From Halogeometricum rufum (GTDB lineage Archaea > Halobacteriota > Halobacteria > Halobacteriales > Haloferacaceae): a DNA stretch of 64,000 nucleotides. Below are positions 8,061 through 62,615 of the stretch, one piece after another; the first letter of the stretch is position 1, and every line of letters starts with the position of its first letter. The stretch is from NCBI RefSeq assembly GCF_900112175.1, contig NZ_FOYT01000002.1, forward strand, positions 620,001-684,000, given 5' to 3'. The notes beneath the pieces are model-generated. The model searched no databases. It was given only the letters and a program-made list of their open reading frames with translations, and was not told the DNA's origin. Position numbers and translations under genes: made by a program.

Positions 8061-9028
8061 CGCGACCGACCGCGCGGGGCGAGTGGGCGGAGGCGGCGGA
8101 GACCGAACGCGACGGCCGGGAGGCGGGCCGCCCCTCCCGCGAGTCGTTCTCGAAGGTGACGATGGGGTTCGACAGCGGCGGCGAGCGCTGTTCTGGCTGG
8201 CTCTACCGCCCCGACCGACCGGCCGAACCGCCCGTCGTCGTCATGGCCGGCGGCCTCGCCGGCGAGCGGTCGTTCGGACTGCCGAACTACGCCGAGCGAC
8301 TCGCCGAGGCGGGGTACGCCGTCTTCCTGTTCGACTACCGCCACCACGGCGACAGCGGTGGCGACCCGCGCAACCTCGTCGACCCCTCGCGCCAGCGCGC
8401 CGACTGGGAGGCGGCCATCGAGGGCGTCCGGTCGAGAGACGGGCTCGACGGGTCCCGTCTCGTCCTCTGGGGGGTGGACGTCGGCGGCGGCCACGTCCTC
8501 GACGTGGCCGCGGACGACCCGCGCGTGCGCGCCGTCGTCTCGCAGACGCCCGTCCTCTCGGGCCGGTCGTTTCTCGGGACGCGGGGCTACGGCTTCCTCG
8601 CGAAGTCGGTGCTGGCGGGCGTCCGAGACCGCCTCCAGTCGCTCGTCGTCGGCCCCCACACCGTCCCCGTCGCGGGCGACCCCGAGGAGTTCGCCCTCGT
8701 CTCGACGCCCGGCGCGCGCCGCGGCTATCTGGACACCGTGCCGGCGGACTCGGCGTGGGTCAACGAGACGCCCGCCCGGTCGCTCCTGAACCTGACGCGG
8801 TTCACGGCGGGGACCGACCTCGACAGCGTTACCTGTCCGGTCCTCCTCCTCGGCGGGACGCGCGACGACGTGGTCCCCGTCGATTCGGTCGCCGCGGCCG
8901 CCGACGAACTCGCGGACGCGACGTTCGTCAGCCTCCCCGTCGGTCACTTCGACGCCTACGAGGGGTCGGGACTCGAACACGTCGTCGGCCACGGCGTCGC
9001 CTTCCTCGACGCCGAAGTGGACGGCTGA
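8057..9028 (+). CDS. Alpha/beta hydrolase with Asp at the nucleophile position
   Basis: A 323-aa alpha/beta hydrolase resembling the large archaeal family of dienelactone hydrolase / peptidase-like proteins. The oxyanion region (VVVMAGGLAGE), the FDYRHHGDSGG strand-turn, the acid loop (GGTRDDVVPVDS, Asp270/271) and the histidine (VGHFDAY, His297) are in order. The nucleophile elbow, normally GxSxGG, reads WGVDVGGGH, so Asp141 replaces serine; the codon is GAC. Asp nucleophiles occur in haloalkane dehalogenases and epoxide hydrolases, or the protein may have lost activity. The GTG start overlaps the preceding stop. An ATG at 8161 is possible but would remove part of the first strand region. 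Confidence 0.85.
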   Translation: MTRPTARGEWAEAAETERDGREAGRPSRESFSKVTMGFDSGGERCSGWLYRPDRPAEPPVVVMAGGLAGERSFGLPNYAERLAEAGYAVFLFDYRHHGDSGGDPRNLVDPSRQRADWEAAIEGVRSRDGLDGSRLVLWGVDVGGGHVLDVAADDPRVRAVVSQTPVLSGRSFLGTRGYGFLAKSVLAGVRDRLQSLVVGPHTVPVAGDPEEFALVSTPGARRGYLDTVPADSAWVNETPARSLLNLTRFTAGTDLDSVTCPVLLLGGTRDDVVPVDSVAAAADELADATFVSLPVGHFDAYEGSGLEHVVGHGVAFLDAEVDG

Positions 9029-55889: not shown

Positions 55890-56080
55890 GTCTGCGTGGA
55901 GGCGGTAGCGAGTAAAAGTTCCACGGCATCGATGGACGCAGTCGGTAGGGATTTGTATGCTCGAACCCTACCATGATATAGAGTGTCACACAAAGCGAGG
56001 CGGGCGCAGGCGATCCCCTCTGGGGAAGCACTTATCCCGCACGGAAACCGAGGAACCAGACATATCCCCGCGAGCAAATC

Positions 56081-58306
56081 ATGAACGAAGTGCAACTCGA
56101 AGTGGCGAAAGCGTACCCGAACGACTCGGGTCGCGGCATCGCCCGTCTTGACCCGGACACGTTGCTCCATCTCAAACTCTCACCGGGCGACATCATCGAG
56201 ATAGAAGGCGGTGAGACGACGGCGGCCAAGGTGTGGCGTGCAGACCGCCAAGACTGGAACACGGACACGGTTCGCATCGACGGCTTCACCCGTCAGAACG
56301 CCGACGTGGGTATCGGCGAACGGGTGACCATCCGGAAGGCGGAGGCGACGAAGGCCGAGAAACTCGTCCTCGCGCCCCCGGAGGAGGCGAGCGTCCAGTT
56401 CGGTTCGGACGCCGCCGGCATGGTCAAACGCCAGATTCTCAAGCGTCCCGTCGTCGAACGCGACATCGTCCCCGTGATGTCCTCGACGAACCACCCGTTC
56501 ATGCGGTCGCCCGGACAGGCGATTCCGCTCATCGCCGTCGAGACGGAACCCGAAGGCGTCTGTCTCGTCACCGAGGACACCGAGGTGGAACTCCGCGAGG
56601 AGCCCATCTCCGGGTTCGAGAAGACCGGCGGCGGAATTACGTACGAGGACATCGGCGGCCTGCAGGGCGAGATTCAGCGGGTCCGGGAGATGGTCGAACT
56701 CCCGATGAAGCACCCGCAGATATTCAAGAAACTCGGCATCGAACCGCCGCAGGGGGTGCTGTTGCACGGCCCGCCGGGGACGGGGAAGACCCTCCTGGCG
56801 AAGGCCGTCGCCAACGAGACGTCGGCGAGTTTCTTCTCCATCGCCGGGCCGGAGATCATCTCGAAGTACTACGGCGAGTCCGAACAGCAACTGCGCGAGA
56901 TATTCGAGGACGCCAAAGAGGAGTCGCCCTCGATAATCTTCATCGACGAACTCGACTCCATCGCGCCCAAGCGCGAGGACGTGACCGGCGAAGTCGAACG
57001 CCGCGTCGTCGCCCAACTGCTGACGATGATGGACGGGTTGGAGACGCGCGGGCAGGTCATCGTCATCGCGGCGACCAACCGCGTCGACTCGGTCGACCCC
57101 GCACTCCGCCGTCCCGGTCGGTTCGACCGCGAAATCGAGATCGGCGTCCCCGACGAGAGCGGCCGCAAGGAGATCCTCCAGATTCACACGCGCGGGATGC
57201 CCCTCTCGGACGACGTGTCGCTCGACCACCTCGCGGACGAGACGCACGGCTTCGTCGGCGCCGACATCGAGTCGCTGACGAAGGAGGCCGCGATGAAGGC
57301 CCTCCGGCGGTACCTCCCGGAGATAGACCTCGACGAGGAGGACATCCCGCCGAGTCTCATCGACCGGATGATCGTCAAGCGCGACGACTTCGAGGGCGCA
57401 CTCACCGAGGTGGAACCCTCGGCGATGCGGGAGGTCCTCGTCGAACTGCCGAAGATATCGTGGGACGACGTCGGCGGACTCGAAGACCCGAAACAGCAGG
57501 TCAAAGAGAGCGTCGAGTGGCCGCTCACCTCCCGCGGGAAGTTCGAACGCATGGGCATCGAACCGCCGAAGGGCGTCCTCCTGTACGGACCGCCCGGCAC
57601 GGGGAAGACGCTCATGGCGAAGGCCGTCGCCAACGAGACGAACGCCAACTTCATCTCCGTCAGGGGCCCGCAACTGCTGTCGAAGTGGGTCGGGGAGAGC
57701 GAGAAGGCCATCCGCCAGACGTTCCGCAAGGCGCGGCAGGTCAGTCCGACCATCATCTTCTTCGACGAGTTGGACAGCCTCGCGCCCAGTCGGGGCAACG
57801 ACATGGGCAACAACGTCTCCGAACGCGTCGTCAACCAACTGCTGACCGAGTTGGACGGCCTCGAGGAGAACGGCGACGTGATGGTCATCGGCGCGACCAA
57901 CCGCCCCGACATGATCGACCCCGCGCTCATCCGCTCGGGTCGGTTCGACCGCCTCGTCCTCATCGGCCAACCGAGCGAGGAGGGCCGCGAGCAGATTCTG
58001 AAGATTCACACGAAGTCGAGTCCGCTCGCGCCCGACGTGAGCCTGCGCGAAATCGCGGAGATAACCGATGGCTACGTCGGGTCCGACCTCGAATCCATCG
58101 GCCGCGAGGCAGCCATCGAGGCGCTTCGCGAGGACGACGACGCCGAAGAGATAGAGATGCGGCACTTCCGCAAGGCGATGGAGTCCGTCCGCCCGACCAT
58201 CACGGAAGACCTGATGGACTACTACGAGCAGATGCAGGACCAGTTCAAGGGCGGCGCGCGCGAGCAACTCGGCGACAGTCGCGGCGGCCGTATCGGCTTC
58301 CAATAG
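56081..58306 (+). CDS. Cdc48/VAT AAA+ ATPase
   Basis: A 741-aa protein with the N domain (double-psi barrel, residues 1-190) and two AAA modules. Walker A motifs GPPGTGKT begin near residues 230 and 503; Walker [11 protein letters not shown] and [10 protein letters not shown] and arginine-finger segments ([17 protein letters not shown]) follow. It unfolds proteins and feeds the proteasome; the C-terminus GFQ fits the HbYX-like end of archaeal Cdc48. The start is behind ACATATCC at 56059. A T-run follows the stop. Confidence 0.96.
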
Positions 58307-58307
58307 C

Positions 58308-58374
58308 ACGTTTTTGCAGATTCGGGTTTCCTCGGGCCGCTTCGCGGCCCTGCGGGAACCCTCATCGCAAAAAC
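58308..58374. repeat. Left arm of long inverted repeat
   Basis: Starts CACGTTTTTGCAGATTCGGG two bases behind the VAT stop, and contains CTCGGGCCGCTTCGCGGCCC and a GCGGGAACCCTC block. It matches the reverse complement of 59470-59534 with only a few differences. It ends in TCGCAAAAACC. The early T-run could end VAT transcription. Confidence 0.9.
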
Positions 58375-58806
58375 CTGCACTAAAAAGATTCCGCGACTCG
58401 CTTCGCTCGTCGCGGCACGACACGGTGGCTCTCCGCCGTCGATTCGCTTTCGTCGTCTGCGTCTCGGTGCCTACTCGGAGGGGTGGACGAGAGGCTACGA
58501 AGCGGGGTTGTTTTGACACCTATTTCGCTCGTCGCGATACCAGCGCTCGTAGACGTATTCGGGGTATCCGTCGTTTAGCAAAGAGTTCGTGAACTAGTAG
58601 CACTCAACAGTAGCTCACGTCTCCGTCGCGGTGTGAGCAAAGACTCACACCTACAGATTACCTCACCCTTCGCTGCGCTCAGGGTTCAGATGAAACAGAC
58701 GAAGAGTGGTCGCCGCGCCTACTCGGCGCGGCTTGATGCCCAAAAACTTGGTTCCACTCGAAATGTTGGTTCCTCGGCTTAGGCTTGTGAGCTAAATTCA
58801 GTGCTA

Positions 58807-58814
58807 TTTAAATA
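58807..58814 (+). promoter_or_regulatory. TATA box ahead of the tiny-ORF unit
   Basis: TTTAAATA in an AT-rich tract. Transcription would start near 58838 and give a leader of about 160 bases before the tiny ORF, including its hairpins. Confidence 0.45.
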
Positions 58815-58934
58815 CCCCACCGATTCGTTAATGATAATAATATGTTTCGAATTCCCGCCTCTCAAGCCCTCTACTCCCAGTACGCTTCGGCGGAGACAAA
58901 ACGGTTAAGCCACTGACTCCCACACCGAGTGTGT

Positions 58935-58985
58935 GAGGTGGCAACAGTCGCCCTCCCAGTTGCAAGGGCTTACTTGAGCCACCTC
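58935..58985 (+). promoter_or_regulatory. Nested hairpin in the leader of the tiny ORF
   Basis: GAGGTGGC (58935-58942) pairs perfectly with GCCACCTC (58978-58985). Inside, GCCCT (58950-58954) pairs with AGGGC (58965-58969). The outer stem ends just before the GAGG that precedes the ATG, so it could hide or present the ribosome-binding site. Confidence 0.5.
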
Positions 58986-59126
58986 AGAGGCCGCCATGAA
59001 CGCTACCCACCTCACGACGCTGAACAACCTCCTCGAGCTCACCATTCAGATTATCACGCTGTTGGTGCTGCTGCTCAGTGAGTCCGAGGAATAGGCGACC
59101 AAAACCACGGTCGCCCTCCCAGTTGC
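58947..59126. repeat. 17-bp direct repeats flanking the tiny ORF
   Basis: GTCGCCCTCCCAGTTGC occurs at 58947-58963 and again, unchanged, at 59110-59126, 163 bases apart. The second copy is partly paired with GGCGACC right after the tiny ORF's stop (59094-59100 with 59109-59115). Confidence 0.85.
58996..59094 (+). CDS. Tiny 32-aa hydrophobic peptide
   Basis: ATG at 58996, TAG at 59092-59094. The peptide begins MNATHLTTLNNL and has one hydrophobic stretch (LLELTIQIITLLVLLL) ending SESEE. GAGG at 58987-58990 is a ribosome-binding site five bases upstream. Most codons end in G or C although the surroundings are AT-rich, which supports true coding. A single-helix membrane peptide of this size resembles bacterial type I toxins or small membrane regulators, but I know no homologue. 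A hairpin with an A-rich loop directly follows the stop. Confidence 0.5.
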   Translation: MNATHLTTLNNLLELTIQIITLLVLLLSESEE

Positions 59127-59240
59127 GGATTACCCTTCTTTCACCTAGTTGAAATCGCTTGTGGTGATTAAACTGGCTTTGATGTCTCTCACCCTGTGCG
59201 AGAACGCCCGTCCACGCCCAACTGGACACCTCACATTCGA

Positions 59241-59248
59241 TTTAAAAG
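59241..59248 (+). promoter_or_regulatory. Orphan TATA box
   Basis: TTTAAAAG after GA, a good TATA match facing right. No credible frame follows until the inverted repeat and the end of phoU, so it may drive a short RNA antisense to phoU's 3' end or be a remnant. Confidence 0.35.
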
Positions 59249-59469
59249 CACACCGGGCTGTGCGCCCGACTACGTTCGCAAGCTTCCCGGAGTGACGAGT
59301 TCATCACTATCGAGTCGAAAGCCTATCCGGCGAACGTTCCAGAATCGGGCTCTGCTTCATCGGCCAAGAAAGGACCCGCAATCAGTCGTACCGCGAGGCG
59401 AGTTTTTGGTCCACCGATGGGTGCATAGCGCCCATCGAGCCTCGCTTCGCGTCGCTCAGCGAGACAGCT

Positions 59470-59534
59470 TTTTCCGACGAGGGTTCCCGCAGGGCCGCGA
59501 AGCGGCCCGAAGAACCCCGAATCTGCGAAACGTG
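59470..59534. repeat. Right arm of long inverted repeat
   Basis: Reverse complement of 58308-58374 with a few mismatches; includes GAGGGTTCCCGCAGGGCCGC and GAATCTGCGAAACGTG. It begins ten bases after the phoU stop in phoU's direction, so both arms sit directly behind genes that point at each other. Confidence 0.9.
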
Positions 59535-59543
59535 GGTGGCCGA

Positions 59544-60221
59544 TTAATAGAGCAGTTCGTCGTCGTCTTCGACCATGTAGAGGGCGCGCGCGGCGATGTT
59601 GACCGCGTGGTCGCCGATGCGTTCGAGGTCGCGGACGGTGAGCAGCATGCGGGAGATGTCGCCCATGAACGACTCGGCGTCGCGTTCCTCCTCGCTGAAC
59701 GGGTCCTTCTCGATGAGGTCGCGGACGACCGTCTCGCTGGCCGCCTCGCACATCGCGTCCACCTCGTCGTCGTGGGCGGCGACCTGCCGGCACATGTCGG
59801 GGTCCTCCTCCGCGTAGGCGTCCATCGCGGTGTCGAGCATCTCCATCGTCTCGTCGCCGATCTGCTGGATGTCGACCTCGGGGAACACGTCGTGTTCGGC
59901 CTCGGTGGCGTACCCGGCGAGGTTCGTCGCGAGGTCGCCGATGCGTTCGAGGTCGGTGATGATCTTGAACGACGCCGCGATGAAGCGGAGGTCCGAGGCG
60001 ACCGGTTGCTGGAGTGCGATGAGGTCGATGCAGTCCTGTTCGAGGTCGAGGTACATGCGGTTGACCTCGCCGTCGCCTTCGACGACCTCCTCCGCGAGTT
60101 GATCGTCTTTCTGTTCGAGTGCGTCCAGACCCATCCGAAGTCGCTCGGCGACGACCTCGCTCATGTAGAGGACGTCGTCCCGGAGCGATTCGAGCGCGTC
60201 TTGATACTGTTGTCGGGGCAT
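59544..60221 (-). CDS. phoU: Phosphate signalling regulator PhoU
   Basis: A 225-aa protein of two PhoU three-helix bundles. Conserved metal-site segments FKIITDLERIGDLATNLA and VRDLERIGDHAVNIAARALY are present, one per half. PhoU restrains phosphate uptake by the Pst transporter when phosphate is enough. The ATG at 60221 follows a TATA-like TTTATT (about 27 bases away on the minus strand). It is separated from the pst genes by an opposite-strand lipoprotein gene. Confidence 0.93.
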   Translation of the reverse strand: MPRQQYQDALESLRDDVLYMSEVVAERLRMGLDALEQKDDQLAEEVVEGDGEVNRMYLDLEQDCIDLIALQQPVASDLRFIAASFKIITDLERIGDLATNLAGYATEAEHDVFPEVDIQQIGDETMEMLDTAMDAYAEEDPDMCRQVAAHDDEVDAMCEAASETVVRDLIEKDPFSEEERDAESFMGDISRMLLTVRDLERIGDHAVNIAARALYMVEDDDELLY

Positions 60222-60244
60222 AATTTCCCGCACACGGTCGAACC

Positions 60245-60250
60245 GAATAA
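60245..60250 (-). promoter_or_regulatory. TATA box for phoU
   Basis: On the minus strand TTTATT is about 26 bases ahead of the phoU ATG. It indicates that phoU has its own promoter, separate from pstSAB. Confidence 0.5.
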
Positions 60251-60393
60251 ACGTGTCGTGCGAACTGGTACGCAATCGAACGTTCGTCTGTGGAGTGCTA
60301 TTGACGGAATCCCGAAGTTTCGGAGATGTCGGGGAACTCTATACGCCGAGCGAACCCGAGTAGCTTTGCGCCTGTCGCCGCCACAGTACACCG

Positions 60394-61476
60394 ATGCACC
60401 GCCGGGCGCTCCTCGCACTCGTTCCGACCGTACTGGCCGGCTGCGGCGGGCTCGAACTCGGGTCCGACGCCGGTGACGACCCGACCGCCGAATCGACGGT
60501 TTCCCGGGCGACGGCGACCGACGCGGCCGGCCGACCGACGGGCGGTTCCTCGTCGCCGTCGGCCGACGCGTCTCCGCGCGCGGTGCGCGTCGCCAACGAC
60601 ACGCCGACGCCCGCCTACGTCTCCGTCGTCGTCACCGACGGCGAGACGACGCGCTTCATCGAGAGCGGCGAGGTGCCGGCGGGCGAGACCCGGGCGTTCG
60701 GCGACTTCGCCGTCGAACCGGGGACCTACGACGTCGTCGTCGAGACGGCGGCGGGTCGGCGGACGACGCGGACGTGGCGCGTCGGCGACGGCGAGGCGGG
60801 GACCGAACTCGCCGCGCGCGTCGAACCGGACGGCGTGCGCCTCGTCGAACGCGCGTACTGCGAACTCGACTGTCCGCCCGTCTCGCGGGGCGGGACGACG
60901 ACGTGGGAGGACCGACCGCCGGCACGCGGACGCGTCGAGTTGCGCAACGAGGGCGAGGCGGCGCGAACGGTTCGGATGCGACTGGTCGCCGACGGCGACC
61001 GACTCGCGGAGTACGAGTACGCCGTCCCCGGGGAGACGACGCTGGTCGTCCCGGCGTACGGGCGGGGGTCGAACTACCGCGTCGAGGTCCGTCGGGGCGG
61101 CGACTGGCGGGCGTTCGACTGGCGAGTCGGCGACGGCGAACGCCTCTACGTGGACGTGACCGCCGCGAACGCGCGCTTTCGATGCGGGTGGCGCAACCGC
61201 GACCTGCGCGTCGTCAACGCCGACGACGTGCCGCACCGACTCGACGTGGCCGTGACGACGGACGGGGAGACGCTGTTCGAAGAGACGTACGAACTCGACG
61301 CGGGCGCTGAGACGCTCGACCCGAGCGTCGTCGAGAACGCCGGGCAGTACGAGTTCCGCATCCGGTCGGACCGCGGCGAGGAGGCGACCTACGTCTGGAA
61401 CGTCTGCCCGCCGCGCGGACCGGTGTGGGTCGTCGTCGACGAGGAGGGCGTGCAGGTGTCGGTCAGTCCCGCCTGA
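60394..61476 (+). CDS. Haloarchaeal lipoprotein of unknown function
   Basis: A 360-aa protein with a short signal and lipobox (LVPTVLAGCGG, Cys at about 17), a Thr/Ser/Asp-rich spacer, and several beta-sandwich repeats sharing VRVANDTPTPAYVSVVVTDGE, RGRVELRNEGEAARTVRM and LRVVNADDVPHRLDVAVTTDGE patterns. It should be lipid-anchored outside the cell. It sits between phoU and pstS but on the opposite strand, so a phosphate role is not implied. Internal repeats suggest four domains. Confidence 0.82.
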   Translation: MHRRALLALVPTVLAGCGGLELGSDAGDDPTAESTVSRATATDAAGRPTGGSSSPSADASPRAVRVANDTPTPAYVSVVVTDGETTRFIESGEVPAGETRAFGDFAVEPGTYDVVVETAAGRRTTRTWRVGDGEAGTELAARVEPDGVRLVERAYCELDCPPVSRGGTTTWEDRPPARGRVELRNEGEAARTVRMRLVADGDRLAEYEYAVPGETTLVVPAYGRGSNYRVEVRRGGDWRAFDWRVGDGERLYVDVTAANARFRCGWRNRDLRVVNADDVPHRLDVAVTTDGETLFEETYELDAGAETLDPSVVENAGQYEFRIRSDRGEEATYVWNVCPPRGPVWVVVDEEGVQVSVSPA

Positions 61477-61496
61477 ACCGGCGGTTCGGACGCCGG

Positions 61497-62615
61497 TCAG
61501 GACTGCTCGGACGGGTCGGGGAGTTTCCCGAGTTCCTCCTCCTGTCTGGCCTGCGTGAGTTTGAAATAGTTGTTCGGCTCGACGAACGTCGCTTGCCCGT
61601 AGTCGTGAACGAGCATCCGGAGGAACGCCGCCTCCTTCTCGGACGTGCCGTCGTACGTGTAGCAGTGGAGGTCGCGGCTGAGCGGGTAGCCTTTGGCGCT
61701 GAGGTTCTCGCCGTAGGAGTACGTCGTCCCGTCGATTTCCAGCGCGATGGGCGGGACCTCCCCGCCGGACTGGACGAACGCGAGTGCGAGGTAGGCGATG
61801 GCGTTGTCGGAGTTGGCGACGAGCGTCTGGACCTGCTGGTTCTGCCCCTTCCGGATGTCGACGCCGGGTATCGGTTCGTCGGCGCTCCCGTAGAGGTTCG
61901 CGCGGAAGGCGGTGTCGGTGCCGGAGCCCTCGGCGCGGCCGACGACCTGAATCTCCCTGTCCGGTCCCGTGTACGACGGTATCTCGCTCCAGTTCTCTAT
62001 CTCGCCTTTGTATATCGCTCTGAGTTGGTCGCCGGTGAGTTTCGTCACGCCGGCGTCGTACACCGCGCGGGAGACGACCAAGGGTTGGCCGTCGACGCCG
62101 ACGACGTGGTTGACGAACGTGTCGAGCGTGGACTGGTCGGCGTCGGGGAGTTCGTCCGCGACGGGCGCGGAGGAGTTGCCGATGTCCACCTGCCCGTTCA
62201 TCACTTTCGTGACGCCGGTGCCGGAGTGTGAGAGTCCGACGTTGACGAGGAACGGCGGCTGACCCTCCTCGCCGCTGAAGCCGTAGCGGCCGGCCCAGTA
62301 GTCGGCCATGTTGGCGTCCGTGTCGATGTCGTACTGCCCGGGGCCCCAGTACTCCTCGTCGTCCGCCGGGGGGTTGGAGTTCCAGACCGACGCGCCATCG
62401 GACGTGATGGGGTACACCGTCGAGGACCCGTCCACCGTCAGCGGTGCCGTCTCGGTGGACCCGCCGGACCCGCCGCCGGCGTCGGTCTGTCCATCGGGTG
62501 TGCCGGACCCGCCACCCGCACACCCGGCCAGTCCCGCGACGCCTGCGCTGCCGAGGAGTGCGGCGAACGCGCGCCGGTCGATACGTGCCCCGTCGTCGGC
62601 GTTGGCGTCTGACAT
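61497..62615 (-). CDS. pstS: Phosphate-binding protein PstS
   Basis: A 372-aa lipoprotein with a Tat-like signal (DRRAFAALLGSAGVAGLAGC) and a Gly/Ser spacer. The mature part has LTVDGSSTVYPITSDGA, VGLSHSGTGVTKVMNGQVDIGNSS and IQVVGRAEGSGTDTAFRAN, the phosphate-binding loops of PstS. It feeds phosphate to PstCA. It lies behind pstB but with a 94-base gap and a TATA-like box, so it is likely expressed separately too. The usual place of pstS is at the front of the operon. Confidence 0.93.
   Translation of the reverse strand: MSDANADDGARIDRRAFAALLGSAGVAGLAGCAGGGSGTPDGQTDAGGGSGGSTETAPLTVDGSSTVYPITSDGASVWNSNPPADDEEYWGPGQYDIDTDANMADYWAGRYGFSGEEGQPPFLVNVGLSHSGTGVTKVMNGQVDIGNSSAPVADELPDADQSTLDTFVNHVVGVDGQPLVVSRAVYDAGVTKLTGDQLRAIYKGEIENWSEIPSYTGPDREIQVVGRAEGSGTDTAFRANLYGSADEPIPGVDIRKGQNQQVQTLVANSDNAIAYLALAFVQSGGEVPPIALEIDGTTYSYGENLSAKGYPLSRDLHCYTYDGTSEKEAAFLRMLVHDYGQATFVEPNNYFKLTQARQEEELGKLPDPSEQS

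Follow-up and report, generated by a model that had tools for sequence, protein, structure and literature searches.

A putative membrane-peptide gene beside a stranded Rep-Arvir-type origin in the haloarchaeon Halogeometricum rufum

Type I toxin-antitoxin loci have been described only in bacteria, in Proteobacteria, Firmicutes and Tenericutes and then, as candidates, in Cyanobacteria (PMC12390103). The closest described counterpart of the locus studied here is par of pAD1, an RNA I/RNA II antisense system whose toxin, Fst, is a single-helix peptide of 33 aa with a charged tail. The order of par and the signature of the Fst superfamily are both published: through the par repeats the antisense RNA makes its second contact with the toxin mRNA, and the signature consists of a conserved Trp before the tail and a P/D/S/TxxxG motif in the helix (PMC7472228). 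The DNA around our locus calls for a different comparison. DUF7845 denotes the Rep-Arvir rolling-circle endonuclease; the origin of the betapleolipovirus SNJ2 lies downstream of RepSNJ2 and comprises a variable inverted repeat and then a conserved hairpin, both of which mutation shows to matter (PMC13107129). The Haloferax lemon-shaped virus LSV-48N (PP151251; PMC12714723) has a rep-origin-integrase order, with an integrase of 206–207 aa.

We analysed a window of 64,000 nt from H. rufum (assembly GCF_900112175.1, contig NZ_FOYT01000002.1, positions 620,001–684,000, forward strand). Near its right end, a gap of 1237 bp separates cdc48 (stop at 58306) from phoU (on the other strand, stop at 59544). 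The best explanation of the small unit in this gap, to which we assign a probability of roughly 35%, is an orphan gene for a 32-aa membrane peptide that was cargo of a mobile element and is RNA-regulated and toxin-like in a broad sense.

The reading frame, its hairpins and the repeats

The unit and its candidate signals comprise the following features, in which the TATA-like strings are picked out by sequence only.

58807–58814, plus strand: TATA-like TTTAAATA, candidate promoter of the peptide gene
58934–58986, plus strand: nested leader hairpin with a 9-bp outer stem, TGAGGTGGC/GCCACCTCA, ending directly before the ribosome site
58947–58963, plus strand: direct repeat copy 1, GTCGCCCTCCCAGTTGC, within the leader hairpin
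58987–58990, plus strand: GAGG, Shine-Dalgarno-like, five bases ahead of the ATG
58996–59094, plus strand: ORF of 32 aa, MNATHLTTLNNLLELTIQIITLLVLLLSESEE, with one hydrophobic helix, an acidic C-terminus (SESEE) and a codon signal
59094–59115, plus strand: perfect 7-bp hairpin GGCGACC-AAAACCAC-GGTCGCC, from the last stop-codon base into repeat copy 2
59110–59126, plus strand: direct repeat copy 2, GTCGCCCTCCCAGTTGC, whose minus strand is complementary, as DNA, to copy 1 in the leader
59167–59172, minus strand: TATA-like TTTAAT, candidate promoter of a short antisense RNA
about 59246, minus strand: a second leftward TATA-like string, TTTAAAT

An earlier note on this DNA had described a 32-aa frame with a GAGG at the right distance, G/C-ending codons and one hydrophobic helix, preceded by a nested hairpin and followed by a second one, and all of these are borne out. 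The GC content of the ORF by codon position is 0.52/0.24/0.85, and among the gap ORFs of at least 25 aa it alone has a positive codon log-odds. Its codon score, trained on 25 genes of the window, is 8.7 bits. Of 2000 dinucleotide shuffles of the gap, 0.85% score as high, and among 32-codon pieces of real genes the value stands at the 12th percentile; for one 32-codon frame, the evidence for a gene is moderate. AlphaFold2, run on the single sequence, predicts one helix spanning residues 3–31 (pLDDT 96); the product would be a single-helix membrane peptide. The AT-rich surround claimed for the frame exists at ∼58.75–58.90 kb (40–45% GC) but does not extend to the unit itself (54–60%).

In the leader hairpin, the outer stem (58934–58942 with 58978–58986) encloses an inner GCCCT/AGGGC pairing, for −27.5 kcal/mol and a z of −2.4; the downstream hairpin has arms at 59094–59100 and 59109–59115 (−14 kcal/mol, z −5.3). 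In random sequence of the same composition, 9-bp stems with a loop of at most 40 cover 0.16% of positions, and 7-bp stems with a loop of at most 12 cover 1.1%. The two copies of the 17-bp repeat are exact and belong to a longer match of 19/20 bp. They had been taken to flank the unit on both sides; both copies are present, but each is part of a hairpin and not a simple flank. Copy 2 starts in the 3′ arm of the downstream hairpin, and each hairpin straddles a repeat edge. The window contains six pairs of 17-bp direct repeats spaced within 400 bp, so such pairs are not rare per se; what is unusual about this pair is its placement in both hairpins, not its existence.

The search for haloarchaeal relatives of peptide and repeat that the earlier note proposed found none. 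Unit and peptide alike had no recognisable homologue in five genomes of the genus, in genomes of the family (99 as DNA, 170 as protein), in 392 genomes of the order, or in plasmids and phages. Neither selection nor drift is therefore measurable for the peptide. Pfam, NCBIfam and PADLOC matched no family, and Rfam returned weak chance matches only (IMES-2 at 22 bits against a cut-off of 54.7). The exact 17-mer, sought in 85,000 genomes and in viral contigs, gave single matches dispersed over unrelated taxa, and the sole haloarchaeal match is one copy with no second repeat nearby. The stricter version of a degenerate peptide pattern had two matches in viral contigs. When ∼2 Mb and 0.8 Mb of DNA were scanned for a tiny hydrophobic ORF between repeats of at least 17 bp, no second clear case emerged. 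A 22-bp match in the same genome to the region upstream of the unit lies inside an AAA ATPase gene and was set aside as chance.

Likeness to par and a possible antisense RNA

Leader hairpin with repeat 1, ORF, hairpin, repeat 2 and leftward TATA-like box follow one another in the order of par. Both loci have a 5′ stem-loop at the ribosome site, a hairpin between the ORF and the second repeat, direct repeats common to both ends (near the start and beyond the stop) and a convergent promoter, here a candidate. Each peptide is a single helix with a charged tail. The hairpin at 59094–59115 sits where par has its bidirectional terminator, and TATA-like strings lie on both sides of it; archaeal terminators differ. 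Unlike Fst, the peptide has no Trp and no Gly among its 32 residues, and it is without a replacement for the Trp at the helix end, the charged N-terminus and a PxxxG-type motif. Whereas par carries DRa and DRb, the window has a single repeat pair, and its host is an archaeon. Because its signature is absent, we rejected membership in the Fst superfamily. The earlier suggestion of a type I toxin-like unit fits the layout.

At pAD1 par the antisense system is established, whereas at the window locus we only infer an antisense RNA, terminator function, membrane insertion and toxicity. A leadered mRNA would encode the peptide and carry repeat copy 1 in its leader hairpin. A short convergent minus-strand RNA would bear the complement of copy 2. 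As the copies are identical, it could also pair with copy 1 in the leader and so shut off translation. The peptide may act on membranes, like the toxins of type I loci with the par layout, and might serve either in maintenance of the former element or in exclusion of others. Among the mostly leaderless mRNAs of haloarchaea, a structured leader bearing a ribosome site would be atypical and would suit a regulated gene. In the par/Fst family the 5′ stem-loop sequesters the ribosome site; in the predicted transcript here the strong leader hairpin ends just before the GAGG, which is only partly paired (mean unpaired probability 0.36). A modelled minus-strand RNA of 56 nt pairs with the modelled leader at a net −17.5 kcal/mol, a value that largely follows from the repeat itself. 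By analogy with par, an RNA-regulated, toxin-like function is plausible, and the idea of a self-contained regulated peptide gene, which fits the codon signal and the hairpins, is partly supported.

If the reading is true, a par-like locus in a haloarchaeon would extend type I toxin-antitoxin systems to another domain, and it would be directly testable in Haloferax volcanii. It is tempting to go further and see here a type I toxin-antitoxin locus that would be the first in archaea, its par-like layout reached without descent from Fst, left on the chromosome as the cargo of a rolling-circle virus-like element; we regard this larger claim as improbable.

A stranded origin and a variable cargo slot

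Two further features, neither of them in the earlier note, lie on either side of the unit.

58616–58735, plus strand: solitary, complete-looking rolling-circle origin of the Rep-Arvir (DUF7845/PF25227) kind, assigned from alignment, covariation and the published SNJ2 origin
58631–58650: hairpin 1 of the origin
about 58665–58685: variable inverted repeat of the origin
58712–58732: invariant hairpin of the origin, GCCGCGCC-TACTC-GGCGCGGC
59192–59225, plus strand: right-hand hairpin motif CCCTGTGCGAGAACGCCCGTCCACGCCCAACTGG, which in relatives bounds the cargo slot towards the integrase

The left piece of the gap (58616–58751) recurs at 94% identity at another place in this genome; a sister species has a version at 83%, and two loci of other genera have versions at 78–79%. 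In these loci the relatives lie downstream of a DUF7845 gene. We aligned ten origins, that of the window and nine others. A DUF7845 gene accompanies eight of the nine; the exception, a similar origin from pHME505 of Haloferax mediterranei, has none within 6 kb. Three hairpins run through the alignment, where 99% of stem cells are paired and compensatory changes affect six pairs; none of 500 shuffles reached as high a covariation. The last hairpin is almost invariant across the ten, which matches expectation for a nick site. The bipartite organization is that of the SNJ2 module. In contrast to that module, the window gap has no rep gene and the origin is stranded; no match to rep or integrase was found in positions 56000–62000 of the window. 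Without a DUF7845 rep beside the origin, the site is therefore a relic, not an element. A related element with both Rep and integrase is present elsewhere in the same genome (L184).

The right-hand hairpin is 91% identical to its counterpart in L185, 87% in L184 and 86% in L187, and the window copy has lost one stem pair. In L184 and L187 it adjoins a tyrosine integrase of 206–207 aa; in L185 the integrase is ∼1 kb away. The origin and right-hand pieces of the gap keep the order and orientation of the relatives. Comparison of these sequences indicates a common module of rep, origin, variable slot, right hairpin and convergent integrase, of which the window retains the origin, the slot content and the right hairpin. 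The origin of LSV-48N is 79% identical to that of the window over 106 bases; unlike the window, the virus has an empty slot without a tiny-ORF unit, and its rep and integrase are present. Since origin and right hairpin are kept and rep and integrase are lost, the unit would be the cargo of a decayed element, apparently of the Rep-Arvir rolling-circle kind and akin to LSV-48N and its integrated relatives. The placing of the unit within a Rep-Arvir relic is well supported and highly probable. The mobility suspected earlier thus holds at this larger scale, and not for a unit bounded by its repeats.

The site defines a variable cargo slot, from origin to integrase, in LSV-48N-like elements, where the right edge is marked by the hairpin motif CTGTGCGAGAACGCCC...ACGCACA. 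Slots lie at L184:4616–9015, L185:8572–12312, L187:8524–9625 and L294:8151–8186, and three of these four loci have a tRNA-Pro gene near rep. The L185 slot holds a FokI-like nuclease gene and an HNH-repeat gene, and that of L187 a 236-aa protein and a small hydrophobic ORF (a 69-aa hydrophobic ORF lies at 8584–8793). By inspection, the L184 slot encodes a large surface-layer-like protein, and L186 has a trypsin-like protease gene past the origin. The tiny-ORF unit was absent from every other slot examined. Even with an inert peptide, the locus documents a solitary chromosomal Rep-Arvir origin with a Rep-bearing relative (L184) in the same genome, which makes nicking in trans a testable question.

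A further slot (L162:1967–4709) contains two adjoining genes of 458 and 454 aa. Neither was matched in PADLOC, and the second weakly resembles the cleavage domain of FokI (E 0.00018). The pair could be an undescribed restriction system.

Competing explanations and the gap as a whole

The toxin-like reading draws on the codon usage, the helix with its acidic tail, the repeats in both hairpins, the par order and the favourable pairing predicted for the minus-strand RNA and the leader; the cargo reading draws on the position of the unit, which fills the slot between origin and integrase-side hairpin that elsewhere holds unrelated cargo. Against toxin-like function stand the lack of any homologue in the genomes, phages and plasmids searched, the lack of such a unit in the other slots examined, candidate promoters that are no more than TATA-like strings, the missing Fst signature and a codon signal that is only moderate. 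The first rival is an unregulated gene by which the lost element encoded a small, non-toxic membrane peptide, such as a virion or exclusion peptide, and which has no antisense RNA. The hairpins and repeats would then be ordinary leader, terminator or mRNA-stability elements. The codon signal and helix agree with such a gene, as do other small hydrophobic ORFs in the slot and in sister-species gaps, such as the 69-aa ORF of L187. However, it leaves the exact 17-bp sequence in both hairpins unexplained and no viral homologue was found, and we consider it somewhat unlikely.

It is rather unlikely that the unit is decaying non-coding debris, with the ORF a chance frame and the repeats and hairpins remnants of, for example, a lagging-strand origin. 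Decay has evidently reached the surroundings, where rep and integrase are lost and the right-hand hairpin lacks a stem pair; the unit is conserved nowhere in the genomes searched, and the gap differs in all five species. Yet decay would erode stems and repeat alike, and here the stems are intact and the repeat is exact, the ribosome site stands at a normal distance and so few shuffles (0.85%) reach the codon signal. A miniature insertion of ∼145 bp bounded by a 17–20-bp target-site duplication, akin to the mobile mini-cassette of the earlier note, would account for two direct repeats identical at 19/20 positions but is very improbable, since it would yield two repeat-straddling hairpins only by an unlikely pair of chances (0.16% and 1.1% of random positions), and neither a second copy in the genome nor terminal inverted repeats were seen.

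The cdc48–phoU gap is present in four sister species (L157–L160), each time filled with unrelated DNA. With different DNA in each of five species, it is a turnover hot spot, and by inspection several of these gaps contain small hydrophobic ORFs. Inverted repeats of 66 nt (58312–58377 and 59465–59530, 91% complementary) lie just past the cdc48 and phoU stops and have relatives throughout the genus. We rejected them as part of the peptide unit because they sit at gene ends and recur across the genus; they are possibly a terminator-like repeat family.
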